Source: Chlorella sorokiniana (lineage: Eukaryota > Chlorophyta > Trebouxiophyceae > Chlorellales > Chlorellaceae). From it: DNA of 64,000 nucleotides. Position 1 is the first letter of the stretch, and every line of letters starts with the position of its first letter. The notes below the pieces were generated by a model, which worked only from the letters and a program-made list of their open reading frames with translations, did not search any database and had not been told where the DNA came from. The translations under genes were made by a program, and so were the position numbers. Positions 769 to 31,048 of this stretch are shown in pieces. Location: positions 2,232,001 to 2,296,000 of the forward strand of contig CP084609.1 of the NCBI GenBank assembly GCA_025917655.1, read 5' to 3'.

Positions 769-3700
769 ATGTCCAGCGGCCGGTGGGTCGGCCCCTGGGA
801 GAGGATCACTCACGCCCTTCGCGAGCGCGTTCGGGCGATCCAGGCGGTCGATGATCGAGCGCTCAAGTCAGTGCTGGCGGCCCTGCGGTCTCGCCCACCG
901 CCCTCCCCTGCTGCCTGTCGCAGCAGCGATCGTGGCGGTCCGGCGGCCTGCAGGGATGCACACGAGCTTCCCGATACGCCCATCCCGGCGCAGGTCCTTC
1001 CCCGCCTCCTCCAAGTATGTGCTGGCGCCGGCGCTGCGGGTGCTCGCCGCCCTGTACGCGTCGTACAACTCCTCGCGCCACTTCTTCTACCGCCAGGGCA
1101 TGCTGCGCCCCCTGGGCCTGCCCTGCCCCGTCATCAGCATAGGCAACCTCACAAACGGCGGCACGGGGAAGACGCCGTTTGTGGAGTACCTCGCGCGGCA
1201 CTACGTCTCGGTCCACCGCATGCCCACAATGGTGCTGCAGGCGAGCGGGGGCTGCCTGCCCCTCGTTTGCTGCCATTTGCTGCAATCTTGTTGCAGCGTT
1301 GCTGCTCATGCCGGCGTAGAATGGCACCACATTCAGGCACCTGTGCATGCGCTTGATGGCCGCCGCCTGCCAGCCGCCGCTGTGCCGATCATGTGCTGCT
1401 GTTGCGGCTGTCATGCGATGGACCCAGCCTCAGCCCCTCTTCCAGCTGGGCTGCTGTTGTTTGCGCAACCCAGTCACGTACCTGCGCGCACTCACACGCG
1501 TGTGTTGCTGCCATGCAGCGCGGCGGCGGGACCGTCGACGAAACCATCATGCTGCGGCACGCGCTGGACGGGCTGCCGGTGTATGTGCACGACTCGGCCA
1601 CGTCGTCGGGGGAAGCCAGGGAGTACCTGCGGGACAACCCAGACACCCGCCTCGCCCTGCTGGACGACGGCCTGCAGAACCTGGCGCTCGTGCGGTGCGT
1701 ACTGCCCCCCGCCCCCCCACCCCCCAGCTTACCTTCCAGGCTGATGCATAGCTACCAGGCTGGCGGCGAAATACTGGGCTGCACAGCAGTTTGCCTGCTG
1801 TCGCCCTGGCCGGCCCTGCCTGCTTGCCGCTGGGGGCTGCCGGGGCCAGCCGCAGCGGCTGCCTTGCTGTCGGCATGGCATGCTGCATGGCAGCCGCTGC
1901 ACTCTCGAACAAGGCCTGACCTGCCACGCCTGCTGTCAGTAGCCTCCACACCCGCTCGCCCCTTGCTTCCCTGGCGTCGCAGCGACCTTGAGATAGTGAT
2001 GGTCAATGGGCTGTGCCCCTTTGGCAATGGGCACCTGCTGCCGCGTGGCACCCTTCGAGAGCTGCCCAAGCAGGCGCTGCGCCGGGCCGACGCACTTGTG
2101 CTGCACAATGTGGACCTGCTAGGTGAGGATGCAGGCATGCAGATGAACCCTCATTTCTGCTGCCTGCCACCCCTACCTCTCCTGTTGAATCTGCCTTTGC
2201 TGATGTGGCTGCTGGGGCCGCAAAGGTGCACCTCCCCAGCTGGCAAGTGTTTCCTGTGTGTTCCTCTCGCACCGTGCCTGCTCGTGCTGTCTCTATATTT
2301 GGTGGAAGTTCTCACTGCCGCAGCCGCTGCACATGCCATGCCTTGTAGCGGCGCATGTGGGGCCAGGGCCCTATTGCGCCACCGTCGTCCGCACCAGCCG
2401 CTGCTGCCCCTGCTCGCGATGCAACCGTTGACTGGGTCGCTGCCTGCCACTGCCGCCTGCAGGCCCGGAGCGGCGGGAGGTGGTGGAGCGGCAGCTGACG
2501 TCGGTTGCGCCGCGGCACACCATCTTCTTGCAGACGCAGATGACGCCCACGGGACTGCGCTCGCTCATACCGCCCACAGGCAGCCTGGGTGCGCACACCT
2601 GTCGGCCGTGGTTCTGCGTTGCAACGACAGCAGCCGAGGGTCACAGTGCTGCAAGCCTCCGGGGCTCGAGCGTGCTCGTGTCAGCGCTGTTGCTGGCATC
2701 TCCAGCGCTGTGCTGCGCTGCATCGCGCTGCCTGCGATGTGTGTGGGATGGTCACCGCCTGCGCCTTCCTGCTGCTGGCCTGCAGACATGAGCATCCAGG
2801 CGGGGCTCGGGAGAGCCTGCCGCTCAGCCGCCTGCACGGCGCCGCCGTTGTCTGCCTCGTGGGCATCGGCAAGCCGGAGGTGCGGCGGGGGGGGAACCGC
2901 GGCTGCACCTCCCCGCTGCTGCCGGCTGCCGCTGGCTGCCGCTGGTGTTGAGCTGGGCCTCCTGGCGCTCTGGTAGTAACCCCAGCCTCACTCCTTACCA
3001 TCTGGCCGTGTGCACAAACACACGCTCCCTTCACCCTCTCCCCACCCTCTCTGTCCCCTTCCTGCCGCTCGTTCCATTTCATGGGAACGCATGAATGTGG
3101 TTGTTCATGCACACATAAAGATGGCTTTGTGGCCACCCCCCCCCCTCCCCGGCAGACGCTGGAGCGCCACCTGCAGCGGCTGGGGGCCACCCACGTGGAG
3201 GGGTGCGGCTCCTACGAGGACCACCACATGTTTGCGCTGGAGGAGCTGACGGACGCGATACGGTGAGGCGCTGGGCAGCGCGGCGGGCGAGCGCAGCAGG
3301 TGTTAGTGTCTGGGACATTGTTGCAGGTCCTGTGGTTGGCGACAGCGGCGATGGGGGCAGCGGCTACCTCGTGGCGTGGGAGAGGGGGTTTGTTTGGAAG
3401 GGGGTTTAGAGGGGGTGGCTGCATGCACACGCGCACCACCGCCTCCTTTCAAGCAGCACTTGAATCTCGATTCCAAGGGCCGGGGCCCTACCCAGCTCCC
3501 CGCTCCTTGCACCCCCATGCCCTCACGCCAGCCTGTGTCGCGCCCCCTGTGCCTCTGCACCCCCATGCTCTCACGCCAGCCTGTGCCGTGCCCCCTCTGC
3601 CTCCCTGGCAGGCGTGTGGAGGACCTGCAGCGCAGCGGCACCTTCCGCCACGTGTGCCTGCTGATGACGGAGAAGGACTATGCGCGGCAGACCGACCTCT

Positions 3701-4614
3701 TCTCCGCGGTGTTCAGGTGGGGCGGTACAGCGGCGGAACGGGGGCGGTAGGGGGCAGGGGGCAAGGGCATGGGGCAGTGCAGCGCGGCGGCAGCCCCGTG
3801 GCACCTGGGTCCGCAGCGAGGCGGGAAGCCCCGCTGTTGGGGTGCGGGCGCTGCCGCCGCGTCGGCTGCTCCTCGCGCCCAGGCCGGCCATGGCGTGGCT
3901 GGGCCCTGGCTGGCGGTTGCTTGCGCACTGGTTGACCTGGCACGTGAGCCCCCGCCTGGCTTGCTCCTCCCTGCCGGCCCTGGTGCTGCCTCCTGTTCTG
4001 ACGCACCTACCCGTCCTGCCGCTGCTGCAGCCAAGTGTCGGCCAGCCCGAGCAGCAGCAGCGGCGAGGAGGGCTCCTCGGGCTGGGGCGCGTACGTGCTG
4101 CAGGTGGGCGGCTAGGGCGGACCTTGGGGACGCTGAGCAGCACGTGCGGGTGGCAACCGTGCTCGGCCTGAGCTCCGCCCGTCGCCTGCTGCCGCCTGAT
4201 GGGTGCAAGGGCGTGTCGCCAGCTCGGCAGCCATCTCCCTGCGCCCCGCGGGCCTTCCCCACTGCCTTTCAACCCCCTTTCATCCGGCTGCCACCTGCTC
4301 CCTCTCTGCCACGCGCCTTCATCTTCACACCACCACCCACCAGCACAGGCCCCCCACCCCCAACACACACACACACGCCACCACACCGCCATGTCCCCCC
4401 CCACCCCCACCCCCACCCACCCCACACACATACACACACACATTAGCCACCACACAATGACCCTCAACCCTCCCACACACACTCGCTCGCTCTGCAGGCG
4501 GGGCTGGAGGTGGTGGACCACGACCGACGCTTCTCCTCCCAGGGCGCCACCCTGAACGCCATGCTGCGCCTGGCGGTGGACAACTTCCGCCGCCGCTCCT
4601 ATCTCACCCTGTGA
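769..4614 (+). CDS. lpxK: Tetraacyldisaccharide 4'-kinase (LpxK)
   Basis: LpxK phosphorylates the 4' position of the disaccharide precursor of lipid A; plants keep the gene and target it to mitochondria. My model has ten exons: 769-887, 994-1240, 1519-1694, 1983-2122, 2463-2588, 2800-2879, 3156-3262, 3612-3716, 4031-4103, 4498-4614. All junctions are in phase and give 429 residues. Family landmarks appear in order: a hydrophobic N-terminal helix, then VISIGNLTNGGTGKTPFVEY with the P-loop, GGTVDETIMLRHAL, LALLDDGLQNL, DLEIVMVNGLCPFGNGHLLP, VVCLVGIGKPE, EDHHMFALEEL and LLMTEKDYAR. The second intron uses a GC donor (CAG|GCGAGC). The ATG at 769 is the first that joins in phase to exon 2. No frame break was seen. 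The promoter is not recognisable. Confidence 0.9.
4358..4445 (+). repeat. (CA)n/(CCCA)n tract in the last lpxK intron
   Basis: Simple CA- and CCCA-rich sequence upstream of the final lpxK acceptor, one of many such tracts in introns of this window. Confidence 0.8.
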
Positions 4615-4973
4615 GCCGCAGCGGCGGCGGCCCCCGGATGCCGCGGGAACGTGCGGTTGCTGGCGCCCCCAGGCCCAGCGCTGCTGCCCAGTGCCCGGCA
4701 ACCCTGCTTGCCAGCTGTTTTCCGCTGCCGCCGCCGCCAGCCACTGCACCCAGTTTTCCTGCCTGCCCCTGCATGTTTTCAGCCCCTGCATGTTCTTGGG
4801 GCCCCGTCCTGCCCGCTGCTTGCTCTCGTCCCCCGTCCTCAGCTGCGTGCCCTGACCGGCGGGTGCCGCGCATTGCGTCGCCGCCTTCACTTCTGTGTGC
4901 GCCTGGCTTTCAACAGCTGCAAACAGGCCAGATCAACGCATGACCAATCAATCCACTTTCCAAACAATTGTGC

Positions 4974-5060
4974 AAACAATTGTGCAAAAGACAGCATTAC
5001 ATCGACGGGTGCAGGGGAAGAGAAGGGCGGGGCAGGAAGAGTAGGGACTGAGAAAATTTT
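4974..5060 (+). repeat. 87-bp direct repeat, left copy
   Basis: Begins aaacaattgtgcaaaag and ends gactgagaaaatttt. It matches 6651-6737 over 87 bases with about five substitutions. Together the two copies bracket the hairpin cluster. An extra aaacaattgtgc lies immediately before it, so its left edge is locally duplicated. Confidence 0.85.
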
Positions 5061-5131
5061 AGCAGGGGTCAACTTCACATGTTTTGGGCAGTTTCTTCCA
5101 GCCAGTTGCTGCCCAGGAAGCATGGCAAGGT

Positions 5132-5362
5132 TGCCATGCACAGTCGCGTTTAAATTTCCTGCCTCTTCATACAGCGGCTTCGATGTCTGTCCAGACTTCA
5201 TCATTGTGGGAAACACTGGCAGGGTGGACTGTGCCCGCAAGAACTGCGGCAGACGGCTGAGCCGCAGTTCCCTGCCAGTGATTTCCACAATATCAAGTTT
5301 GGGCAGACATCGATGCCGCTGTATGAAGAGGCAGGAGAACTCGAAAAGCGACTGTGCATGGC
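5132..5362. repeat. Long hairpin 1
   Basis: Arms of roughly 100-115 bases (about 5132-5248 and 5261-5362) are reverse complements with scattered mismatches and small gaps around a loop of about 12 bases. Shared arm sequence includes tgccatgcacagtcgc and tgcctcttcatacagcgg. No ORF or protein family was recognised. Confidence 0.8.
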
Positions 5363-5377
5363 AGCAGGTCTTGCAGC

Positions 5378-5581
5378 GGAGCCGGCAGGTGTTGCTGGTA
5401 CTGCAGTGCGGCCTGCTCCCAGCCTTCCCCATGCGTGACGAAGGCAGCACCAAAGAGGCACGCGGCCGCAGTGCTGCCTTCGTCAGCTGCAGCCGTGTGC
5501 CTCTTTGGTGCTGCCTTCGCCACGCATGGGCAGGCCGGGAGCAGGCCGCACTGCACAGTACCAGCAACACTTGCCGGCTCC
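5378..5581. repeat. Long hairpin 2
   Basis: Arms at about 5378-5461 and 5497-5581 are reverse complements over about 84 bases; ggagccggcaggtgttgctg pairs with the end of the right arm. The loop holds a further partial copy of the gaaggcagcac segment in inverted orientation, so the inner part can also fold. Confidence 0.8.
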
Positions 5582-5750
5582 GCACACTGCAGCAGCAGAC
5601 ACTACGGATGTCGTGAGCTTGTACTGAATATCCAGCTTGTTGACCGCCAGGTGCGCCTCCAGCACGTGCTGGAGGCGGATCTGGCAGTGAACAAGCTGGA
5701 TATCCAGTACAAGCTCACGACATCCGTAGTGTCTGCTGCTGCAGTGTGCG
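5581..5750. repeat. 170-bp near-perfect palindrome (hairpin 3)
   Basis: The sequence is symmetric about the 5665/5666 junction: 5581-5665 is the reverse complement of 5666-5750 with five mismatches in 85 pairs and no spacer. The centre is cctccagcacgtgctggagg. It abuts hairpin 2. Confidence 0.9.
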
Positions 5751-5987
5751 CGCAACGTACACATCGACCTGGCCGAGCAGCCGATCCTACCTGTGCACAA
5801 GGGCCAAACTATTTGTACATTGTACTGATGCCATTCAATCCCCGACAGACACAGCGCTGTTGACACGCGTCAGCCAGCGGAAAGAGCCACCCCAGTGCAA
5901 TCGCTGGCCTGACAGCCGCTTGTTACATGCGCTGCACGATAGCCAGCTTGCCAACTCACCGCGCTGCGAGATGGGCGGGCCTCCACC

Positions 5988-6205
5988 GGCCCACCACTGC
6001 TGGACGCTGGGGTGCTCTTCCGGGCGTGGCCGTCTTGTGTGTGCCAGGCCGAGCCGTGGGGAGTCTCCACCTGGGGCTTGTTGCTGGGGTTGAAGTACTT
6101 CAACCCCAGCAACAAGCCCCTTGGGAGACACCCATGGCTTGGCCTGGCGCACGCAACACTGTCACGCCCCTGAAGAGCACGCCAGCGTCCAGCAGTGGAG
6201 AGACC
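5988..6205. repeat. Long hairpin 4
   Basis: A palindrome centred on tgaagtacttca at about 6096/6097. Arms of about 105-110 bases pair with scattered mismatches; the inner 60 or so bases are almost perfect (cttgttgctggggttgaag and its complement). Confidence 0.85.
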
Positions 6206-6650
6206 CACGAGTGCGCGCGGCGGCATCCACAGCAGTCCTGGAGTTCCCTGCACTTTCATGGCGTCTGGGTGCGTTTGCATGCAGATGGAGTACAGAGCAA
6301 CGTAGATAATGACTTGGATGCTACAGCAACAAGCAGGCAGGCATAGGTAGGGGCGGCCCTGCTGAGTCGCTCACCTTTCAGCGCATTGCGGCTGCAGGAG
6401 TCAACTTCCAAGTGCCCAAAGAGCAAAAGGCAAGATAAACGACCTTGTGGGCAGCGATTTGAGCAAAGGCAACGAGCTTGGAAGATCCAAGGCTCACTGA
6501 TGAAAAGGCTGACTGCACGTGGGCGCCAGCTTGGCCTGTGCGGTGCGTGCTGCTCTCAGACGAGCACACTACAAACGTCTGCTGCAAAGCTCTACAACTT
6601 TCCTGGATGTATGCCTCACAGAAATTCGTGTCCTGCAGGCCACTATTCAT

Positions 6651-6737
6651 AAACAATTGTGCAACAGACAGCATTGCAGCAATGGGTGCAGGGGAAGAGA
6701 AGGGCGGGGCAGGAAGAGTAGGGACTGAGAAAATTTT
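6651..6737 (+). repeat. 87-bp direct repeat, right copy
   Basis: Second copy of the 4974-5060 repeat in the same orientation, ending in the same gactgagaaaatttt. It closes the hairpin cluster on the right. Confidence 0.85.
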
Positions 6738-6853
6738 GGGATGCAGTGCATCTCAACGCACACATGTACCACCAGGGGCAATTGAGGTGGCCTTCATCCT
6801 GTTGAAACACTGGTGCAGACTGCACAGCTGGCTGCTGCCTTCCTGCGTCCGTT

Positions 6854-9800
6854 TCACTTTGCGGCTGCAGGCTGCGGCACCGCAGGCTGCGGGGCGGGGG
6901 CGCTGGCGGCAGCGGCGGCCGGCAGCACTTGCTGCTCGATGAACTGCAGGATGTGGCGGTTCACCTGTTCCGGCACCTCGTCATGGGGGCTGCACTCAGG
7001 GGGGGGGGGGGTAGAAATGAAGAAAGGGGGCACCATTTGTGCGTGTGCGCGTGTGGGGGTCAGGGCAGCAAGGATGGGGGGGGCCGCAAGAGGGGAGGGG
7101 GCCCAAGAGCGGAGGACAGGCAGGAGGACGGGGAGCATGGCTGACTTTAGTTGCCCGGCCTGCCTGTCGGCGGTGCCCCGGAAAGGCCCCACGTTGTTAC
7201 ACCCGCTGCCAGCTTTCCTGCTGCCGGTGCTCCCATCTGCAGCCCGACGCCTCCCCTAACCCCACAGCCGCCCACCAGCCACCCACCAGTGGCCGGCGTC
7301 GAGGCGGATGACGCGCGCGTTGGGGCAGGCGGCGGCGAGCTCAGAGCGCGGCGGCGGGCGTCGTTCAGTGGATCCTTTTCGCCCTGCGTGAAGGGGTGCG
7401 TATGTGTGTGTGTGGTGTGTGTGTGTGCGTGTGTGTGTGTGTTTTTGGGGGCGGCGATACGCTCACTTCAATCAATCGAGCGGTAGGTGGGTGGGTGCGG
7501 AGGGTGCGGCGGCAGCATGCACATCATGCTGGAAGGCGGGCGGGGAAGCAGGGCCCCCGCAGCGCTGCCCCCACCTGCAGCACCAGGGTGGGCCCCGAAG
7601 CGCTCTGCCACCAGGTGGTTGAGGGCGCGGGGGGGGGGGAGGTAGAAGACGCTCCTGCGGAGGCAGACAGGAAACAGGGCGCAGAAGGGGAGGGGGGGGG
7701 AGGCTGTTGAGCGCCGCACGTGGCACATTGCCAGTTCCCTTCTCGCGGTTCACTGAGTCCTCGCCAGCGGGGGCCAATGCACATGGTTTGCTCAACCGCA
7801 CACGTGCTCAGCCAGCTTGGTGCGGGCTCGGCGCGGCGCCCGCACCTGAAGACGCCCAGGGCGCCGGGGTCGCGGGCGGCCCGCGCAATCTCGCCTCCCA
7901 GCCACGCGTCGGCCCGCTCGGGGCGCACGGGGTACACTCGGCGCAGCTGGTTGGTGACGTTGCCCTCCAGGAAGGCGAAGAGGCCCTGTTCGCATGTGCG
8001 GTGGGGGTTGAAGGGGGGGAAGGGTGGGCCGGGGCACGCGTCAGTTGGGTGGGTGTGTGGGGGGTGTGGGCGCGCGCGCGCCTGGACAGAATAACTAACA
8101 GCAGCGGAGCAAGCGGCCGAGGGCGCATGTTGAAAGGGTAGAGTCGAGCCATAAGCTGTGTGCTTGATGCAAGGGCGCAGGGGCAGCGGCAGGCAGCGGC
8201 GCGTCAGCACGCTGCCAACTCGTCTATGCAGGCGACGCGAGCGGGCACGAGCGAGCCTGCCCTGCCGCCCCTTCTCACCCTGGCAATCCCCTCCACCACG
8301 TAGCGAGGGGGCGGCCGGGCCTTGGGCGGCACCGCAGGCGGCTGGTACCCAGGCACGATGCGGCCTGCACACAGAGAGGTGCGCGAGGCAGGAGGCGGCG
8401 GGCTTCAGCGGAGGCTCACAGCTCAAAAAGCGGCGCCAACAGAGGATTGGCCAGGCCCAGGCGAACACAAAGCAGGCTGGTGCGCTGAAACGCGTTCATG
8501 CTTCTGCTGGATGCCCTTTGCATCACGAAAGGAAAGAACGAAAGAAAACAGGAAGAAAACCAGACAGAAAGAACAGGGAGGGAGGCGAGGAGGCGCACCC
8601 GCGCTGTTCAGCAGCACCAGCCCCTGCACGGCCCCCGGGTAGTCTGCCGCCAGCGAGGCGGAGATGAAGCCGCCGATGGAGTTGCCGGCCACCACCACGG
8701 GCGCCGCACCACCTGAGACAGACACAGCGACGGCAGGAGGGCCGGGCGGGTCAGGCGGGAAGGCTGGGCCGCAGCAGGCCGCGTCTTCTTGAACACCGCA
8801 ATCGTTTGGCATGCGGCGCAGGCACGTGAGGCAGGCACGTGGCAGGCAACATGCAGCCCTGTTGTGAGGCAGGAGGGCTGGCAGGCAAACACCAGGACGG
8901 CAGGAAGGAAGAAGTGGAAGGAAGCAGCGGCAGCCACCTGCAGCACGAAGTCTGCAAGGAACTGGGACCAAAGGTCCTGCGGCGGCGCAACGGGGGGAAG
9001 CAGTACATCACAGAAGCGAGGAGGCAGTGCACGAGGCAGTCGCTGAGCCATGCAGAGCGAGGGAACACCCAACAGGCGCATGCTCACGCGCAGCGCCTGC
9101 TCAAGCGGAGCCCCACCGCAATCAAACCACGGCGAGCCAGTGGAATGCAGAACACAGCCGCGGCCCGCCCACCTGGCTGTAGGGCAGCGCCGGCTTCTCG
9201 GCGCGGCCGTAGCCGGGCAGCGTGGGGCGTAGACGTCGTAGCCGGCTGCCGCCAGCGCCGCTACGTTGGCGCGGTAGTGTTCTGCAGCGGGCGAAGGAGG
9301 GGAGGTGGGGGCAGGGCAGGGGAGGGGACATGAAGGCGTGTGTTTTTTTGGGGGGACGACGCAGTATGATGTGGCTCTTGAGGTACCATGGATGTGTCCG
9401 CCCCTCGAAAAACAGCCAAGCCAGCGGGCAGAGAGGAAGTTGTTGACCGCATGCGCCCGAGCGGCACAGCCGGCTTGCCTGAGAAGGCGCCGAAGCCGTG
9501 GCAGAGCAGGATGGCGGGGCGGTCGGCGCTCGCGCCGCCCGCCGCCCGGCGCGTGCAGGAAATCCGTGAGCAGGCCGCGCCAGCGCCAGTGGCGCAGCGT
9601 GGCGTCGTGCACGGCGGCCCCCTCCCTCTCCGCAGCCATGCGGTCGTGGAAGTCTCGGGCGGCGGCCGACGCTGCGGCCGCGGCGGCCTTGCGGCGGCGG
9701 CGCAGCCGCCGCCGCGCGCCGCCGCCGCTGGTCAGCAGCCAGGCCAGCTGGCGCAGCGGGGCGAAGCCGAGCGGCCACTCCTGCTCCGCCTGCTGCGCCA

Positions 9801-12294
9801 GCAGCGCCGCTGCCTCGGCGTGCACCCGCCGCTCGAAACAACGCCCAGCTGCAGCGCCTGCGGGGGCAGCGCGAGGCAACGCGGCAGGAAGATTTGCTGC
9901 TTCAAGAGGGGCCAGCGGGGGCGCCGTACACGCACACAAGCATGCAGCGCTGCCTGCCGCAGAGCGCCAAAAATGCGGGGCCCCGCATGCCTAGCGGGGG
10001 AGCACAACAGAGCGGCGCCTCCTTCGCACACCCTGAAGCAGAGCATCACTGCGAGCGGTACCCGGCAACCCAAGCCGCACGCACCTGCCAAACAGGGCGG
10101 GAAGCAGCCATCCGGAGTGGCCGGCAAGTCGTACCGCTGGATGGCTTCGGCCAGCGCCGCCGCCGCCGCCGCCTCCTCCTCCTCCGCTTCGCTGCCGCCG
10201 CCGCCGCCCGTCGCGCTTTCTTCCAGGTGCCGCAGGTAGGAGCCGAGCGCGCGCAGCACGGGCCCCTCCCCCGCCGCTATCTCAGCCGCCAGCGCCGCCT
10301 CCCAAGCCTCGCGGCCGGTGCCGCTGCAGCCCGGCGGCGACGCCATCCCCTCGACAAACGCGCCGCCCTCGGAAGCGGGGCCGGGGCTGGGCACAAGGCG
10401 GTCAAGGAGGCGGCCGCCGCTGCTGCTGTCCTCATCGCTGAAGCTGGCGCTGTTGGAGGTGCCATTGGAAGCGGCTGCAGCGGCATGGGGCGCAGGCGCC
10501 GCCGCCGCCACGTCGCCGCCGTAGCCCGGCAGCGCCGCCGCAGTCGGCCGCAGCGCGGGGCTGAGCGTAGAGTGGAAGGCTTCCGCCGCCAGCCGCCGCA
10601 GCTGCGCCGCCGCCCAAGCCCAGCCCGCCACTGGATTCGTCGCCGCCGCCGCTGCCAGCCGAGCCATTGGTCAACGCCGACGGTGCGCCCTGCGGCAGTG
10701 GCGGCAGCCGATCCAGCGGCGGCAGCGGGTCGTTGTAGCGCAGGCCCCGGGCCTGGAGCTCTGCAAGGGCAACAAACAAAAAAGAGAGATTTGCCGTGAA
10801 CCCATTTGTGACGCAGGAGCGGGAACACCTGCAAGCACACGACGGTGGCAGAGGGCCGGCCAGAGCCGTGCACCGCTCTATGGGCGCCGCTTAAAGCGGC
10901 GAGAGCCGCGTGCGCCAGGCCTCCCACCCCCAAAGTCGTCGCCGCCGTCGGCCAGAAGAGGGGCGCGCCACTCTTGCAGCGCGGCGCCGGGGGGCAGCGC
11001 CGACGCCGCGCGGCCCACGCCCTCTCGCCAGTCTGGAGCAGGGGGTGGGGAGCAGGGGAGTGGGTGTGGGCGGGTGGGGCGCAGGCCAACTTACGGCTAG
11101 GTTCAAATTACAGCTCGTCGCTGCTGCCAAGAAATGCCGGGTCAAAAACCTTGTAGTAATGCCGAGGCAAGCAAGCGGAGTGAAAAAGTGTAGAAGTCGA
11201 GTCAAGGCTGGGGCCGGTGCCAGCTACACGCAGGCCAGACCGCCTCTGGCAGCAGCAGCTTGAGTGCGGGAGTCGACCGTCGCACTACATAGGCGTGCCC
11301 CTCACCCGCCTCCACCTCTGCCTCGGCTACCACGCCGCCGCCGCCCAGCAGCTCCACCAAGGCGGGCAGCTCCCGCTCCCAGGGTCCCACCCGCACCAGC
11401 AGGCGGCTGCCGCGCTGGCGCAGCGAGCGGTCCAGAGAGGCGAGGGCCGAGCAGAGCGCTGCAGGCGGGACGGGGACGGGGCAAGCAAGGGGGTGGGGTG
11501 GGGTCCACGCCGCGTCGGTGCTTGCAGCACTGCTTCTGGGGCCGCTGGTGCGTGGGAGTGTGCAGAAGCAGGCCCCCAACATGTTCTTTTCCCACAAGCA
11601 GCCGGCTGGTGGGCTCCCCCTTTCAGCAGGGCTTGTTGCGGGGGGGGAGGGTTGCTGCTGCTTCCCTGCTGCTTCCTGCCGCATCACCTCAGCCCAGCGA
11701 GGCAGGTGGCCCCGCGCTGCACCCTCAGCCTGCGCCGCACCTTCGGCGCCGCCGCGGGAAGCACCAGGGGGCGTAGCGGGCGGGGTCGAAAACGAAGACG
11801 GGCTGCACGCCGGTGCCGCCCGCCGCGGCCGCCGCCGCGTGCCAGCCAGGGTGGTCGTCCAGCCGCAGGTCTCGCTTGTACCAGAGCAGCAGCGGGCCGC
11901 TGCTGCTGCCGCCGCCCGCGCGCCGCCGTTGCTGCTGCTGGCGGCGGCGCTGCTGCTGCTGGCGGCGGCGGCAGACGGGGCTTGGGCGCCCCTGCCCGCA
12001 GCGCTGCCCTTTGGTCCTGCCTGCAGGCAGAAATTTTACAAGCACAACCGCATCGCTCAGATCAAGCGTCCAGCTGCTAGGTTGTGCCAGGGGTAAGGGT
12101 CACTAGCAGGTGCGCAACCAACTCACCAAGGCGCGAGGCTGCTGCTGCAGGCGGCGCCGCCGCCTAGGTGCCGACCAGGCGACGCCAGCGCTAGCGCCTA
12201 TCTGCGGCTTTGTTGTGATCGAAGCAACTGCCAGAGGCTGTCTGGCCCGGCCAGGCGACCTTGCGCAGGAAGTTGACAGAAAAGTGGAAGACAT
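6854..12294 (-). CDS. Photolyase-domain / alpha-beta hydrolase fusion protein
   Basis: The N-terminal domain is the Rossmann-like half of the photolyase/cryptochrome family: LLLWYKRDLRLDDHPGW and VQPVFVFDPARY (about 11880-11780), then SLDRSLRQRGSRLLV (11470-11306) and an ALQEWRAPL block (11032-10928). The FAD-binding photolyase half is absent. After a glycine/alanine linker comes an alpha/beta hydrolase: AILLCHGFGAFS (9500), EHYRANVAALAAAGYDVY (9281-9173), VVVAGNSIGGFISASLAADY with the nucleophile-elbow serine (8712-8599), RVYPVRPERADAWLGGEIAR (7985-7846) and PHDEVPEQVNRHILQFI before the stop. Plants have the same fusion, plastid-targeted and of unknown substrate. The first exon (12294-12127) reads like a transit peptide, but its join to the next exon is not clean. 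Several blocks are out of phase by one base. The intron after HGFGAFS has a GC donor (9479). Confidence 0.75.
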
Positions 12295-23248: not shown

Positions 23249-25968
23249 TCCATGAGGTTCTGTTTCCTGTCGCTGCAGCAGTCAGCACCACCATCCCTGG
23301 CATGCTCCTACTCCCGGCATCGCTGCTGCCTCAACCATCTGCAGGCCTGGGCGCCGGCCGGCCGCGCCAGCACAGCGTCCCCGCACGCTGCTGGCGGGCG
23401 TAGGCCTGCTGGCGGTTGCGGCGGCGCTGGCGTTGCTGTACCGCCTGGCTCCCGCCGCACGCGGCCCCGGTACCGCCCAACCCACCGAGGAGGAGGCCCG
23501 CGACGCGGCCCGCGAGGAGCAGCTGCTGCGGGGGAGCCCTCCCCCGCGTTCTGCGCCCTGCCGCCCCCGCTGGTGTGCGCGCACGGCGGCGACGTCGCGG
23601 CTGCGCCCCCAACACCGCCGCCGCCTTCGCCGCCGCGCTGGCGGGCGGCGCGCGCTGCGTGGAGGTGGACGTGTCCCGCACCCTGGACGGCCAGCTGGTG
23701 GTGCTGCACAGCCGGGAGCTGGGCCGGCTGCTGGAGCTTGCCGGCGGCGGCGCCCGCGCGGCCGCACCGCCCGGGGGCACAGCCGCAGGTGCAGGGCTGG
23801 CTGGCTGGCCCGCCGCCTCGCTTTCCCCCGCTGCACTGGCCACCATCATGCATAGCCTGCGCCCAAGATTGGCGGTTGGGCTGCAGGACTGGTCCCCGGC
23901 TTGCCTGCCGCCACGTTGCTGCACTCGAGCGCAGCGTCGTCGTTGTTCCCAGCGCAGATCCCCTCCCCCTTCCCTCCCCACTGACACATTCCACACCCCA
24001 GGTTGGCGATTTCACTTGGGACCAGCTGCAGCGGCTGCGCTGGGCGGGCGGCGAGGGCGTGGAGCGCGCCGAGGACGTGCTGCGCCTGGTGCGCTGCTGC
24101 TGCCGGCCGGCTGGGCAGCAACGCTGGCGGCGGCCGCGCCCGTGCTGCGGGCTTGGCCGGGTGCTGCAGGTGGCTTGGTGGCTCTTTGCTGCGGGCTCGG
24201 CTGGCTGGGGGGTGGGCTGCCGCTGAGGCAGGAAGGCTTGGAAGCAGGGCGTGCCAAGCTGGCGGCTGGCCCGGCGCCCCTGTGCCGGCGGCTGACGCCC
24301 AGCCGCGCAATGCTCTGCGCCAGGTGGCGGACCAAGTGGAGCAGGTCACGCTTGATGTGAAGACGCACAGCCAGGTGGGGCGCTGCGGCGCTGCTGCCGT
24401 GGCGGCACGCGCTGCGCGTGGTACTGCTCGCGCCAGCTGCGGGCTGGGCAGCGTGTCTTTGTGAGGGTGTGGGTACGGCCACCGCAGGACGGGCAGAAAC
24501 GGACATGGCGGTGGGAGGGTGTAAGTGCCTGGTGTGGCGTGTCTCTGTGTGTGGGGAGCGGGCGGCGTCAGGGGCGGCGAGTGCGGGTTTGTTGGTGGGT
24601 GTGGCGCCAGGCGCAAGCTGCAGCCCCGCGGGCTGCACAGGCAGCAGCGCCGAGCGCCCGCCGCCCGCCGCCCGCGCCGCAGGCTGGGGAGGCGGTGGAG
24701 GAGGACTCCCTTGCCCAGGCCGTCGTCGATCTGGTGGCCCGGGCCGCCTGCACCCGCTGCCTGGTGTGGGCCAAGTCAGACGCGGTGGTGAGCCCGCCTG
24801 GCCCCCCGCTGCCCGACTGCTCGCAGCTGCGGCGCGGGGGAGCGCGGGGGGCTCCCCAGGCGGCGCCGCCGCAGCTGGCCCGCCCCCTGCCATGCGCGCC
24901 CTGCCCCCAGCCGTGGGCACCCCAAGCCTCACCCCCGTTCCCGATTGTACCCAACAACGGCCTGGCTGGCTTCTTGCCTGCTGCCCTTGGCGCCTTTCCC
25001 CAACCGCCACCCGCCGCCTCCCTTCCTGCCGCAACCCAGAACCTCGCTTCCCTCTGCTTGAACCCTGGATCATCCACATTCAGCAGCAGCAGTTCAATCT
25101 CCTATCACTGTTTTTGTTTAGGACCCCTGCCGTCTGGCCCGCGCTGTTGGTCTCGGCGCTGGCTGCCCCCTCTCTCGCGCCCCTTCCCATCCTGCCATTC
25201 AGCCGCCATTGTCAATCCCCGCCGGAACGCCACAGGCCCCCTCTCGGTTTAGCTGCACGTGTGTCGCATTGTCGCAGATCGTTTCTGGTTTGCCCGTCGC
25301 CCATCGACCGTCGCCTCCCCGCCGCCCGCCGCTTGCAGGTGCAGCTGGTGAAAGGGCTGGCCCCCGCCCTGCCCGTCGGCTACGTGGTCCTGAACGAACG
25401 GCGGCGGCCCGCGCAGCAGGGTCCCACAGCCTGCTGCGCCTGCCGGCCGCCGAGGTGGTGGGCGCTGCACTACGCCATGGCCAGCGACGGCGGCGTCACG
25501 GCGGCGGCGCGGGCCGCCGGCAAGCAGGTGTGCGCTGGGGCGGCGCTGAAGCGCGGCCGGCGTTTTGCCCCCAGCTCCCTTGCTTGCTGTAGCAGCAGCA
25601 ACCCTCGCCCCACCACTAAAGACTGCATCTCTTTGCCAGCTCGGCCGAACGCCCGCCCGCCCGGCCCACCCAAGCCCACCGGCCCCACCCCGCCAGGTGC
25701 ATGCCTGGACCGCCAACACGGCTGGCATGATGCGCGGGGTGCTAGATGCCGGGGTGGATGCGGTGGTGACCAACCACCCCGCAAGCTGCAAGCAGCCATC
25801 GACAGCCGCGTGGCCGCCTGCCAACGACAGCCGGGGTGGGCTGCAACGCGGCCGACACGCAGCCTGTTTGCTGCGGTGGGCGGCGGCGGGAAGCTGCTGG
25901 CGGGGGCGGCGCAGGGCCTGGGTGGCAGCGGCGGAGGCAGCGGAGAGTGGGGCTTGCTGGGAGTTTGA
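23249..25968 (+). CDS. Glycerophosphodiester phosphodiesterase, plant GDPD4-like
   Basis: GDPD enzymes split glycerophosphodiesters from deacylated phospholipids into sn-glycerol 3-phosphate and an alcohol. The N terminus (about 23390-23450) has a membrane helix, LLAGVGLLAVAAALALLYRL. The catalytic domain opens with VCAHGGD and PNTAAAF, then CVEVDVSRTLDGQLVVLHSR. HGG in place of HRG and the loss of E before NT match the Arabidopsis GDPD4 (At1g71340) subgroup. Further exons: 24002-24088 (VGDFTWDQLQRLRW), 24324-24374 (VTLDVKTHSQ), 24683-24787 (CTRCLVWAKSDAV), 25339-25527 (LHYAMASDGGVTAAARAAGK) and 25697-25968 (VHAWTANTAGMM, LDAGVDAVVTNHP). Start and first exon are uncertain. One-base frame losses occur in the long first coding block and in the last two exons (near 25398 and 25785). 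The 3' end runs into the tandem repeat family. Confidence 0.8.
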
Positions 25969-27309
25969 GCCGGGCTGAGCGGCAGCTCCAACTGGATCGC
26001 TGCGTGCAAGCCAGGCAGTACTTCAGCCTGCAACCCCTTCCCCAAGTAAGAGCCAGACAGCAGACAGTCTTTTGCCGCTGCCTGCTCAGTCCTGGGGTGA
26101 CGTGCTCCTCAGTTGCGGCTGACAGTGGTGGCAGGGGGCTGGATGAGCTGGCCGCCAATCCAGCCTGGTTTCAGCAAGTCCCGCCGTTGGAGGAGTTGCG
26201 ACGAGGTAAAAGGAGCGGGCTTGAGCAGCGCAGGGCAGGGTGACCCTTCTGGTGCAGCTGGGCAGGGAGCTTTTCGCTTCAAGTGTTGCTTCAACAGGAG
26301 CGCCCGCTGCTCCGCCTTTGGCTAGCGAGCTTGCATGCCCCCAGCGCATCGCTGCCGAGACGCTCCCACACAGGGCATCCTCTGCGCCAAGTGCTGGCAG
26401 GCTTTGACAGGTGCTCTCCTGCGAATGTCTTGGAGCAGGTGTGCCTGTTTAAACATCAGGAGTCGAACACATAGACCATCAACGCGACGATGGCCAGGCA
26501 GCCGGCAGTGTAGGCGAAGATGAAGTAATCGAACCAAGTGTGGCTGTTCAGCAGCAGAACGCACAGGAAGGACCCTGACCCCAAGCAGGCAGCGATCTTC
26601 GCCTTGACGTCGATCTTGGATTTCGGAGCTGGTCTGCAGAGATCCTCCACACTCTGCTGACGCTTGCGGCCGTGCCCCCTCACATCGCGTGCACCGGTGC
26701 TGGGGGCAGCCTGCCGGGTGCTCTTGATGGCGGCGCAGTGGTCAACCGCCTCTTGACTGGCAAAAGGCCTGCAAAGGCGTACAGGCGCAACAGGCAGGGC
26801 CGCGTGTGAGCCGGTCAGCAAGGACCGCGGCAGCGGGCACGGACCAGTTGGGCGCGGCAGCAGAAGGGGTACAAGCCAGGCGCAGCGCCCGACATCTGGT
26901 CGCGCAGCCAGCCAGGCCGAGCGGCGGCCCTCATGTCCACAAATGCCCTCCAACTGGCCCACTGCGGGTTTCACGGCAGCTTGCCTGCCGGCTGGGAGCA
27001 GAGCCCGCGAGCGCTGGCACGCTCTGTGTCCCGCAGGAGCCCCTTACGACATATCGAAGGCTCCAAAGACCCAGCAAGTCTCATTCGCAGCCCTGACCTG
27101 CAAGGCGCGTCCCGGTGGGGCCTTTGCTATGGTTTTCTCTGACTGCTGGGGTCGCAGCAAGCAAGGTGCCCAGAACTCTGGCAGGAGACCCGAAGAAACG
27201 GGATCAAACAGCCACAGACGGCTGGATGGGCATCTCCTGCAGTGGCAGCCTGCGCAGCCTGCGCACCTGCTTTGCATGCTGCTCCATCACGGACAGGAAG
27301 TATCCTGCC
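25943..27309. repeat. Tandem repeat unit 1 (older, diverged body)
   Basis: First of three units with a period of about 1.36 kb. It starts gagagtggggcttgctgg inside the last GDPD exon. The body (to about 26930) is clearly related to units 2 and 3 but has many substitutions and small indels. From about 26930 to 27309 it is nearly identical to the end of unit 2. Confidence 0.85.
26456..26768 (-). CDS. Small membrane protein, C-terminal exon, paralog 1
   Basis: The exon begins after a tttgcag acceptor and gives about 103 residues to a TGA stop. It opens PFASQEAVDHCAAIKSTRQ, continues through a basic stretch (ARDVRGHGRKRQQ) and ends in two hydrophobic segments, ACLGSGSFLCVLLLNSHTWF and YFIFAYTAGCLAIVALMVYV, then FDS. 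This looks like a hairpin pair of membrane helices with a short tail. Family and function are not recognised. The exon is open throughout, unlike the same frame in copies 2 and 3. A 5' exon containing MRAAARPGWLRDQ is likely but its donor was not resolved. Confidence 0.5.
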
Positions 27310-28672
27310 GAGAGTGGGGCTTGCTGGGGAGTTGGAGCCGGGCTGAGCGGCGGCTCAGTTGCATGCATGCCAGGCAGTACTTCAGCCTGCAACACCCTTC
27401 CCCCTCCCCAAGGAAAGTCCAGGCTGTCTGCAGGCAGCCTTTTGCCGCCGCCTGCTCAGTCCTGGGGTGACGTGCTCCACAGTTGCAGCTGACAGTGGTG
27501 GCAGGGGGCTGGATGAGCTGGCCGTCAACCCAGCCTGGTTCCAGCAGGTCCCGCCGTCGGCGGAGTTGCGACGATGAGGTAAAGGAGCGGGCTTAAGCAG
27601 CGCAGTGCAGGGTGACCCTTCTGGTGCAGCTGGGCAAGCAGCGTGTTGCTTCAACAGGAGGGCCTGCAGCTCCGCCTTCTGGCTGGCGAGTTGCATGCCC
27701 CCAACGCATCCCTGCCGAGACGCTCTCACACAGGGTAGCCCCATGCGCCAGTGCTGGCAGGCTTTGCCAGGTGCTCTCCTGCGAATGTTTTAGGGCAGGT
27801 ATGCATGACGAAAGTTCAGGAGTCGAACGTGTAAATGTAGAACAGGACGATGGACAGGCAGAAGGCAATGCAGGCGAAGACGACGTAGTCAAACCAAGTG
27901 CGGCTTGATAGCAGCAGAACGGACAGGAAGAACCCAAACGACACAGACACAGAGAGCTTTTGCTTGACGCTGATCATGGGTTTCGGTTCTCCAGAGGATT
28001 CCTCCAGTCCCAGCTGACGCCTATAGCTGTGCCCCCTCACATCGCGGGCGGCGCTGCTGAGGGCAGCCTGCCGCCGTGCTCTTGATGGCGGCGCAGTGGT
28101 CAGCCAACTCTTGACTGGCAAACGGCCTGCAAAGGCGCACAGGCGCAACAGGCAGGGCGGTGGGTCGGCCCAGCCGAACAGCAAGGGCCTGCTGCAGCGG
28201 CTGTGGACAAGGCGGGCGCGACAGGAGCAGGTACTGGCACGGCGCAGCGCGAAAAATCTGGTCACGCAGCCAGCCAGGCCGAGCGGCGGCCCTCATGTCC
28301 ACAAATGCCCTCCAACTGGCCCACTGCGGGTTTCACGGCAGCTTGCCTGCCGGCTGGGAGCAGAGCCCGCGAGCGCTGGCACGCTCTGTGTCGCGCAGGA
28401 GCCCCTTACGACATGCCGAAGGCTTCAAAGACCCAGCAAGCCTCATTCGCAGCCCTGACCTGCAAGGCGCGTCCCGGTGGGGCCTTTGCTATGGGTTTTC
28501 TCTGACTGCTGGGGTCGCAGCAAGCAAGGTGCCCAGAACTCTGGCAGGAGACCCGAAGAAACGGGATCAAACAGCCACAGACGGCTGGATGGGCATCTCC
28601 TGCAGTGGCAGCCTGCGCAGCCTGCGCACCTGCTTTGCATGCTGCACCATCACGGACAGGAAGTATCCTGCC
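27310..28672. repeat. Tandem repeat unit 2
   Basis: Exactly 1363 bases before the corresponding start of unit 3. Its first 1.16 kb appears identical to unit 3. Its last 200 bases instead match the end of unit 1 almost perfectly. Confidence 0.9.
27816..28126 (-). CDS. Small membrane protein, C-terminal exon, paralog 2
   Basis: Homologous to the 26456-26768 exon. The last 65 or so residues are conserved in type: ISVKQKLSVSVSFGFFLSVL, then LLSSRTWFDYVVFACIAFCL and SIVLFYIYTFDS, giving two membrane helices and the same FDS end. At the start the ancestral frame (PFASQELADHCAAIKST) runs into a stop because this copy has one extra base near 28074; the downstream frame is open further up as SRARRQAALSSAARDVRGH. 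Either splicing differs from copy 1, or the N-terminal part is lost. Confidence 0.4.
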
Positions 28673-30030
28673 GAGAGTGGGGCTTGCTGGGGAGTTGGAG
28701 CCGGGCTGAGCGGCGGCTCAGTTGCATGCATGCCAGGCAGTACTTCAGCCTGCAACACCCTTCCCCCTCCCCAAGGAAAGTCCAGGCTGTCTGCAGGCAG
28801 CCTTTTGCCGCCGCCTGCTCAGTCCTGGGGTGACGTGCTCCACAGTTGCAGCTGACAGTGGTGGCAGGGGGCTGGATGAGCTGGCCGTCAACCCAGCCTG
28901 GTTCCAGCAGGTCCCGCCGTCGGCGGAGTTGCGACGATGAGGTAAAGGAGCGGGCTTAAGCAGCGCAGTGCAGGGTGACCCTTCTGGTGCAGCTGGGCAA
29001 GCAGCGTGTTGCTTCAACAGGAGGGCCTGCAGCTCCGCCTTCTGGCTGGCGAGTTGCATGCCCCCAACGCATCCCTGCCGAGACGCTCTCACACAGGGTA
29101 GCCCCATGCGCCAGTGCTGGCAGGCTTTGCCAGGTGCTCTCCTGCGAATGTTTTAGGGCAGGTATGCATGACGAAAGTTCAGGAGTCGAACGTGTAAATG
29201 TAGAACAGGACGATGGACAGGCAGAAGGCAATGCAGGCGAAGACGACGTAGTCAAACCAAGTGCGGCTTGATAGCAGCAGAACGGACAGGAAGAACCCAA
29301 ACGACACAGACACAGAGAGCTTTTGCTTGACGCTGATCATGGGTTTCGGTTCTCCAGAGGATTCCTCCAGTCCCAGCTGACGCCTATAGCTGTGCCCCCT
29401 CACATCGCGGGCGGCGCTGCTGAGGGCAGCCTGCCGCCGTGCTCTTGATGGCGGCGCAGTGGTCAGCCAACTCTTGACTGGCAAACGGCCTGCAAAGGCG
29501 CACAGGCGCAACAGGCAGGGCGGTGGGTCGGCCCAGCCGAACAGCAAGGGCCTGCTGCAGCGGCTGTGGACAAGGCGGGCGCGACAGGAGCAGGTACTGG
29601 CACGGCGCAGCGCGAAAAATCTGGTCACGCAGCCAGCCAGGCCGAGCGGCGGCCCTCATGTCCACAAATGCCCTCCAACTGGCCCACTGCGGGTTTCACG
29701 GCAGCTTGCCTGCCGGCTGGGAGCAGAGCCCGCGAGCGCTGGCACGCTCTGTGTCGCGCAGGAGCCCCTTACGACATGCCGAAGGCTTCAAAGACCCAGC
29801 AAGCCTCATTCGCAGCCCTGACCTGCAAGGCGCACCCCGGCGGGGCCTTTGCGAGGGTTTTCCTCTGACTGCTGGGTGTCGCAGCAAGCAAGGTGCCCAG
29901 AACTCTGGCAGGAGATCCGAAGGGACGGGATCAAACAGCCACAGACGGCTGGATGGGCATCACCTGCAGTGGCAGCGGCGTGCCTGCTTTGCATGCTGCA
30001 CCTGGACGAGCGGTACCCTGCTTCATCTAC
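28673..30030. repeat. Tandem repeat unit 3
   Basis: Identical by eye to unit 2 up to about 29830, then diverges; 29835-30030 is a recognisable but substituted version of the unit end and leads directly into the next plus-strand gene. Confidence 0.9.
29179..29489 (-). CDS. Small membrane protein, C-terminal exon, paralog 3
   Basis: Base-for-base repeat of the 27816-28126 exon with the same two helices, the same FDS terminus and the same extra base in the upstream part. Identity this complete means a very recent duplication or ongoing gene conversion. Confidence 0.4.
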
Positions 30031-30073
30031 CTGGCCTCCACGGCTCCAGCCTGCGTTCCACCTCGACCACCAC

Positions 30074-31048
30074 CATGCAGCAAGCTTTCACATGTGGCCC
30101 AGCAGACGGTGAGCCCGGGTTCTGGACCTGCCTGTGCGGGGAGCCCCCCAGCTGCCTTGGACTGCCTTGGGCCGCTCCCACCTCACCTTGCTTCGCGCCC
30201 CATGCATGCAGGTCTCGCCAGGGGCAGCGTGGCCCGCCCTGATGCAGCGACGCGCCGCCCACCCTGCCTCCGCCCGGCGGCTCCACCCCCTCGCCAGGCA
30301 GCTCCTCCACGCACAAGCTCCTGGCACCAGCGCCGCCATCGCGAGGGCTCGCCGCTAGCGGTGCAGCGCCCACCAGGGCCCGCGGCAGCCGCTCTTCGGG
30401 GCAACTGGGCGGCTCTTCCCCCAACAACAGGCAAGCAAGGGGGCTCCCCGCACGCATGAACACTCTGCAGGGCAACAGCAAAGCAGCAGGGCATGCACGC
30501 CGCGCGGCTGCAACAGCAGCGGTCTGGCAGCACACGGCAGCAGAACTGCTGTGCTGTTACAGCGGCGCAGCGCTCGTGCCGCCAGCGCTGGCCTGCCTGC
30601 TGCGCGCAAAGCGCAGCCCGTGGCCCCGTGCGCCGCAGGCGCCGCGCGTGGATCCGGAGAGTGAAGCCATTCTGAAGTCGCTGCACGTGGAGACCCAGCT
30701 GAAGCTCTGGCGCCTCAGCCACGACATACCGCTCAGCTTCAAGCTGTTGGCCCTGCAAGTGGTGTCTGTGCTGCCCTTCATCTTCATCGTCGACCTCCCA
30801 GGGCTCCTGGAGCCCCCATCCGGCTGGCCATCATCGACGGGCTGGGCTGCGCGACCCCGGAGGCTGCGGCGGCGGCGCCCGGCCTCTCTCAGGCCGCAGC
30901 CTACCTCCTGCTTGCGCTCGCCCTGCTGGGCCCCGCCAAGTCGTGCCTGGACCAGCTGATCGCCCGCGCGCAAGCCCAGTGCTGCAAGGCTCAGCTGGAG
31001 ACGGCGATGACAGAATACTCGATAGAATGGGAGGATGTGGGCCTGTGA
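30074..31048 (+). CDS. Unknown membrane protein
   Basis: The well-supported part is the last exon (30639-31048), after a cgccgcag acceptor. It starts APRVDPESEAILKSLHVE, continues LKLWRLSHDIPLSFKLLALQ and VVSVLPFIFIVDLPGLLE (a membrane helix), then a second hydrophobic block LSQAAAYLLLALALLGPAKS, and ends TEYSIEWEDVGL. Between the two, one base seems to be missing in a C run near 30812, because IRLAIIDGLG and the rest are in the next frame. A likely first exon starts at ATG 30074 (MQQAFTCGPAD), followed by a Pro/Arg-rich exon ending at a GC donor (about 30430). The link from there to the last exon was not resolved. Family not recognised. Confidence 0.5.

Follow-up and report, generated by a model that had tools for sequence, protein, structure and literature searches.

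The window, that is, the whole stretch of 64,000 nucleotides that was analysed, contains an array of four near-perfect stems inside 1.07 kb, which lies between two protein-coding genes and is bracketed by a pair of direct repeats (Table 1). The introns in its LpxK and photolyase genes, its G+C content and the size of the genome point to a Chlorella-like green alga. The two neighbours, LpxK on the plus strand and photolyase/hydrolase on the minus strand, are convergent, so that both are read towards the hairpins. Reading by eye placed the LpxK stop at 4612-4614, and the last exon of this gene (4498-4611, 38 residues), taken alone, had no Pfam match. We infer that the photolyase and hydrolase frames are one gene, of which the last minus-strand frame (ending at 6854, without a Pfam match) is the last exon; photolyase and alpha/beta hydrolase may be fused in this gene. 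The array, located between convergent genes, could be part of a long 3′ UTR of either neighbour or a separate RNA gene.

Table 1. The hairpin array, its bracketing repeats and the neighbouring genes (window positions; energies from plus-strand RNA folding, z relative to 200 dinucleotide shuffles of each hairpin).
Feature	Position	Strand	Description
LpxK gene with introns, left neighbour	851-4614	+	PF02606 in two frames, 851-1741 and 1393-2973
87-bp direct repeat, copy 1	4974-5060	+	extra AAACAATTGTGC unit directly before
Hairpin 1	5132-5363	.	arms match at 97/111 ungapped positions, 10 gap columns; −169.9 kcal/mol, z −20.1
Hairpin 2	5376-5583	.	arms match at 93/101 ungapped positions, 6 gap columns; −201.2 kcal/mol, z −21.7
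Hairpin 3	5581-5750	.	spacerless palindrome, arms match at 80/85; −163.2 kcal/mol, z −23.7
Hairpin 4	5994-6198	.	arms match at 88/100 ungapped positions, 5 gap columns; −192.7 kcal/mol, z −21.9
87-bp direct repeat, copy 2	6651-6737	+	found by self-comparison and genome search
Photolyase and alpha/beta hydrolase frames, right neighbour	6854-12045	-	PF00875 at 11728-12045; PF12146/PF00561 at 8426-8971

Opposite-strand self-alignment recovered four separate inverted repeats, as the original prediction had described, with borders at most 7 bases from those given there. Hairpin 1 aligned at 78% identity (171 bits), hairpin 2 at 87% (245 bits), hairpin 3 at 94% (262 bits) and hairpin 4 at 86% (219 bits), and the half-lengths of 85-116 nt agree with the predicted arms of about 85-115 bases. 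No bases separate the innermost ungapped arms of hairpin 3, nor those in the core of hairpin 4, which is perfect over 24 bp and spans 6073-6120. In hairpin 2 the spacer is 15 nt long; that of hairpin 1, at 45 nt, folds into further short stems. Hairpin 3, which abuts hairpin 2, is perfect over the outer 46 positions of its arms. The hairpins had also been said to have no sequence in common, and self-comparison of the window reported no alignment between different hairpins; the sole exception to the lack of matches, a 23-nt direct match at 74%, joins hairpin 1 to 6229-6251, which is outside the hairpins. For each of the four hairpins, none of the 200 shuffles was as stable as the real sequence. 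All four fold into a hairpin, which is one of the miRNA-gene criteria given in the excerpted text of PMC5511227; a further criterion in the same text is that the main read has at most 4 mismatches to the opposite arm. Windows of 21 alignment columns with at most 4 differing columns, counted without a defined mature strand, made up 64 of 101 windows in hairpin 1, 83 of 87 in hairpin 2, 65 of 65 in hairpin 3 and 56 of 85 in hairpin 4.

No gene had been expected between the direct repeats, and the 9 open reading frames across the region indeed contain no Pfam family at the cut-off, the single sub-threshold match being to TehB (E = 0.2). The 64-kb window as a whole gave no Rfam match at the gathering score and no tRNA. 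Inverted protein-coding exons, and with them a derivation of the arms from exons of a known family of genes, were rejected: none of the 9 frames has a Pfam family, and the peptide of hairpin 3, which had looked coding, matches only itself in the genome. Of the 5 differences between the arms of hairpin 3, 4 share a codon phase, a weak bias given that there are three phases to choose from, and hairpin 4, by eye, has no such pattern; coding arms were accordingly rejected as well.

To set the array against the remainder of the genome, we used as a control 221,002 bases outside the window, in 23 stretches, of which 14 were placed at round coordinates and 9 had been chosen for other reasons, being next to the window or at or beside genes for RNase III, Dicer or Argonaute. 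The two highest-scoring inverted repeats in this control reached 66 bits (length 46 nt) and 52 bits (length 97 nt), vs. 171-262 bits at the locus. In the rest of the window, the inverted repeats above 60 bits within 1.5 kb are all at 33.3-34.0 kb, score at most 77.9 bits and have low trinucleotide entropy; the stretch in question (33281-33957) is rich in G+C and holds several weaker inverted repeats. The inverted-repeat scan covers 285 kb of the 38.8 Mb, window included, and further arrays may be present elsewhere.

Both of the 87-bp direct repeats that had been predicted to bracket the hairpins were confirmed. They are identical at 82 of 87 positions, including all of the last 54 bases, and are 1677 bp apart. 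Each contains a long purine-rich run and has GAGAAAATTTT at its end, and the extra tandem AAACAATTGTGC unit before the left copy falls within 4961-5060. The G+C content of 4974-6737 is 0.58, compared with 0.67-0.69 in three of the four flanking stretches and 0.57 in the fourth (6738-6855). The observed/expected ratio of CpG over the same interval is 0.63, compared with a median of 0.77 for 126 1-kb windows, among which the one from 6001 has the third lowest value (0.59); as a signal of methylation, low CpG at the locus is a hint at most.

In searches of the whole genome (38,804,885 bases in 15 contigs; very common words skipped), the 87-bp repeat was found in two copies, both at the locus, the whole hairpin region (E up to 1) matched only its own place, and one arm per hairpin (E up to 10) matched only itself and its partner arm. 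The hairpin locus is nuclear and, by these searches, single-copy. Because nothing except this locus was returned, a dispersed fold-back or TRIM-like element, which needs more than one genomic copy, was rejected, and the fold-back reading of the original prediction is not supported: neither the repeat nor the region nor the arms led to a second locus. For the same reason, an origin from a still-present gene was rejected; an siRNA locus formed by inverted duplication of its target gene would have an arm that matches a present-day gene elsewhere, and each arm searched matched its own hairpin only. Four exact scans of viral contigs with one piece per hairpin (27, 28, 22 and 21 bases) gave 0 matches, a kind of scan that diverged relatives would escape, and an exact 32-base piece of the direct repeat gave 0 matches in bacterial and archaeal genomes.

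The arms differ by substitutions at 5 of 85 positions in hairpin 3, 8 of 101 in hairpin 2, 12 of 100 in hairpin 4 and 14 of 111 in hairpin 1, with 0, 6, 5 and 10 gap columns, respectively. These differing divergences suggest births at different times, or different constraint. We compared the stems with simulated neutral decay, in which perfect hairpins were given the same number of changes (200 runs per hairpin, with indel counts roughly set by hand). On the plus strand, the fractions of simulated hairpins as stable as the real ones were 0.11, 0.29, 0.61 and 0.05 for hairpins 1-4 (combined p = 0.085), and on the minus strand 0.47, 0.04, 0.60 and 0.69 (combined p = 0.29), that is, the excess of pairing over neutral decay is not significant on either strand. 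Among the 39 arm mismatches, 12 are G-T and 7 are A-C, which leans to plus-strand transcription but is neither significant nor decisive (p = 0.36). TTACA, which we take to be the minus-strand form of the algal poly(A) signal TGTAA, occurs at 4997 and 5923, and TGTAA is absent from the plus strand of 4400-7000, which leans, again not decisively, to minus-strand transcription. Given that the pairing excess and the G-T excess are both non-significant, these comparisons fix neither selection nor the transcribed strand. A perfect run of the length seen in hairpin 3 (46 positions) had a probability of 0.105 by chance, and a run of at least 24 one of 0.137 in hairpin 4 and of 0.318 in hairpin 2 (own longest runs 23).

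Potential targets were sought at two scales. One 23-mer common to both arms of hairpin 3 had no site in the genome outside that hairpin at up to 3 mismatches. The plus-strand 21-mers of all hairpins, compared with 285 kb in which 5061-6650 was masked, had no match when up to 2 mismatches were allowed and 11 matches when up to 3 were allowed; the respective means for 12 shuffled 21-mer sets were 1.1 and 11.2. These counts are at chance level, with no sign of targets in the 285 kb.

Both a Dicer-like gene and an Argonaute gene are found in the genome, the RNase III parts of the former being weak singly. Argonaute is represented by four Piwi matches at C1:3585026-3586341 (minus strand), two of the frames reaching E = 1.3 × 10−16 and 6.2 × 10−14; the best PDB match of the Argonaute frame is Argonaute 10 (2.4 × 10−15), and the accompanying PAZ frame is just under the cut-off (28.5 vs. 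28.8 bits). The Dicer-like gene, on the minus strand of the same contig, has a Dicer_dimer match at 1090937-1091110 (E = 1.5 × 10−6, 33.3 bits vs. a cut-off of 23.7). Downstream of this match, a single RNase III domain is split in order over three frames, none of which reaches the cut-off; one of them best matches Dicer-like 4 (E = 0.024). Then follows a second RNase III start, which is below the cut-off (25.3 vs. 27 bits) and the frame of which matches Dicer homolog 1 (4.2 × 10−8) and Dicer-like 4 (5.7 × 10−7). A weak ResIII match upstream of the gene (E = 0.0024) and a further PAZ match (E = 0.15) are likewise below the cut-off. RdRP gave no match in the genome, but the control genomes were equally silent, so that absence is not implied. 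Two RNase III genes besides the Dicer-like one were noted, at C3:353680-353901 (plus strand) and at C3:3432281-3432478 (minus strand), the latter of which, read by eye, seems to precede a dsRNA-binding-like stretch.

We see about an even chance that the hairpins were born in place by snap-back copying and that they are transcribed, perhaps as part of a 3′ UTR, into a long-hairpin precursor of small RNAs. Under such a scheme, a replicating strand would have snapped back and copied itself, each hairpin thus being made in place; a non-coding RNA, or a long 3′ UTR, that carries the four long hairpins would be transcribed; the stems of about 85-116 bp, which have room for four or five 21-nt duplexes, would be cut by the Dicer of the alga; and the products would be loaded into Argonaute as miRNA- or siRNA-like small RNAs. 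By analogy with Chlamydomonas DCL3, a cis effect might be added, namely dicing of the 3′ UTR of a neighbouring mRNA. What the analysis establishes is the hairpins with their stability, the lack of further copies in the searches, the position between convergent genes and the presence of the Dicer-like and Argonaute genes; transcription, dicing and loading, any target and the snap-back origin are inferred. A small-RNA locus is the best single reading because transcribed stems of this kind are Dicer substrates, Dicer-like and Argonaute genes are present and there is a precedent in Chlamydomonas. Snap-back replication probably made each inverted copy where it now stands, given that no other copies were found, that the arms are adjacent and that they are unrelated between hairpins. 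The transcript feeding a Dicer/Argonaute pathway that the original prediction proposed thus gains indirect support from the two genes and from z values of −20 to −24, but not from any target. Template switching, listed there as a separate possibility, is plausible as the origin, with unrelated arms, little or no spacer in three of the four hairpins and no third copy; such an origin and a use in small-RNA production are compatible, not competing.

The locus is most likely an instance of a kind known from green algae. According to the portions of PMC4817775 at hand, most miRNAs of Chlamydomonas are products of DCL3 acting on introns and UTRs, and of 13 mRNAs that carry a UTR miRNA, 8 go up in dcl3 mutants; the excerpted text of PMC5511227 adds that many condition-prevalent miRNAs seem to derive from fairly long hairpin precursors and that Chlamydomonas miRNAs are not conserved. 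In these partial accounts, the DCL3-dependent precursors of Chlamydomonas reinhardtii are species-specific, sometimes long, often located in UTRs or introns and cut to about 21 nt (PMC4817775, PMC5511227). The locus described here resembles them in belonging to a green alga with Dicer and Argonaute and in having well-paired hairpins (PMC4817775, PMC5511227), and it differs in that four sequence-unrelated hairpins form one array between direct repeats and in that its small RNAs are predicted. Inverted copies made in place with a short or no spacer, as its hairpins probably are, are also a feature of template-switching quasi-palindromes, as far as the available descriptions of these go. The hpRNA loci of Drosophila and the long inverted-repeat siRNA loci of plants are near-perfect inverted repeats that are diced to siRNAs, evolve fast and are sometimes clustered, and they often derive from a target gene that is still present. 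Long near-perfect inverted repeats are a likeness to these loci, whereas the genome searches, at their sensitivity, revealed no target gene here. We found few papers on the small RNAs of Chlorella-like algae. In the excerpts of PMC10325826, miRNAs of 18-24 nt are reported for Chlorella pyrenoidosa, and in those of PMC8059543, the algal endosymbionts of Paramecium bursaria have Dicer, with no Argonaute and no small RNA longer than 20 nt, from which it follows that Dicer need not mean active RNAi in algae of this sort.

A serious rival to the small-RNA reading, and one that we hold to be quite possible, is that the hairpins are neutral palindromes: a hotspot of snap-back copying or template switching would have produced four inverted duplications at different times, which are simply decaying, any transcript being incidental. 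Arms that are unrelated between hairpins and lack a third copy, the missing spacer in hairpin 3 and in the hairpin 4 core, the 15-nt spacer in hairpin 2, and divergences that vary as independent ages predict (from 5/85 in hairpin 3 to 14/111 and 10 gap columns in hairpin 1) all agree with this explanation, as do stems indistinguishable from neutral decay and a target scan at chance level. However, the hotspot would have to be very local, since 1.07 kb holds four hairpins and the 221 kb examined elsewhere hold nothing comparable. Moreover, the literature describes palindromic and inverted-repeat sequences as fragile (PMC7999016 and PMC3855049, in the passages available), and survival to such divergence would be unexpected under pure neutrality.

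It is unlikely that the hairpins were brought in by a mobile (or immobilised) element present in one copy, with the 87-bp direct repeats as its termini. Their position between repeats 1677 bp apart that share the last 54 bases, and an internal G+C content lower than that of three of the four flanks (0.58 vs. 0.67-0.69; fourth flank 0.57), would fit such an element, but the genome searches yielded neither the repeat nor the region outside this locus, no matching short duplication is visible by eye outside the repeats and the 9 open reading frames contain no transposase or other Pfam family. Palindromic chimeric reads are a known artefact of long-read sequencing; they would yield near-identical arms, whereas here 6% to 13% of the ungapped arm positions are mismatched, three of the four hairpins also contain indels, and the four neighbouring hairpins are unrelated. 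A sequencing or assembly artefact is for these reasons extremely improbable. We also regard it as very unlikely, if slightly less so, that the array is a memory of silencing guides, in which unrelated sequences were added successively at one site, each becoming fixed in the form of a long hairpin, and are diced from one transcript against vanished invaders. We counted towards this idea the different arm divergences, the lack of a source sequence in the genome searches and the bracketing direct repeats; if it were true, the invaders silenced would be viruses or mobile elements no longer in the genome.

With four strong stems at a compact locus, and a Dicer-like gene and Argonaute in the same genome, the array offers a place to ask whether RNAi works in Chlorella-like algae. 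It also bears on the birth of new hairpin genes, and the arm divergences may provide a dated series at one site. Elsewhere in the window, at 25940-30002, a 1.36-kb unit is present in about three tandem copies, with 92% identity over a 2.7-kb overlap and 83% between the first and the last copy, and six open reading frames of at least 190 aa overlap 25500-30500.
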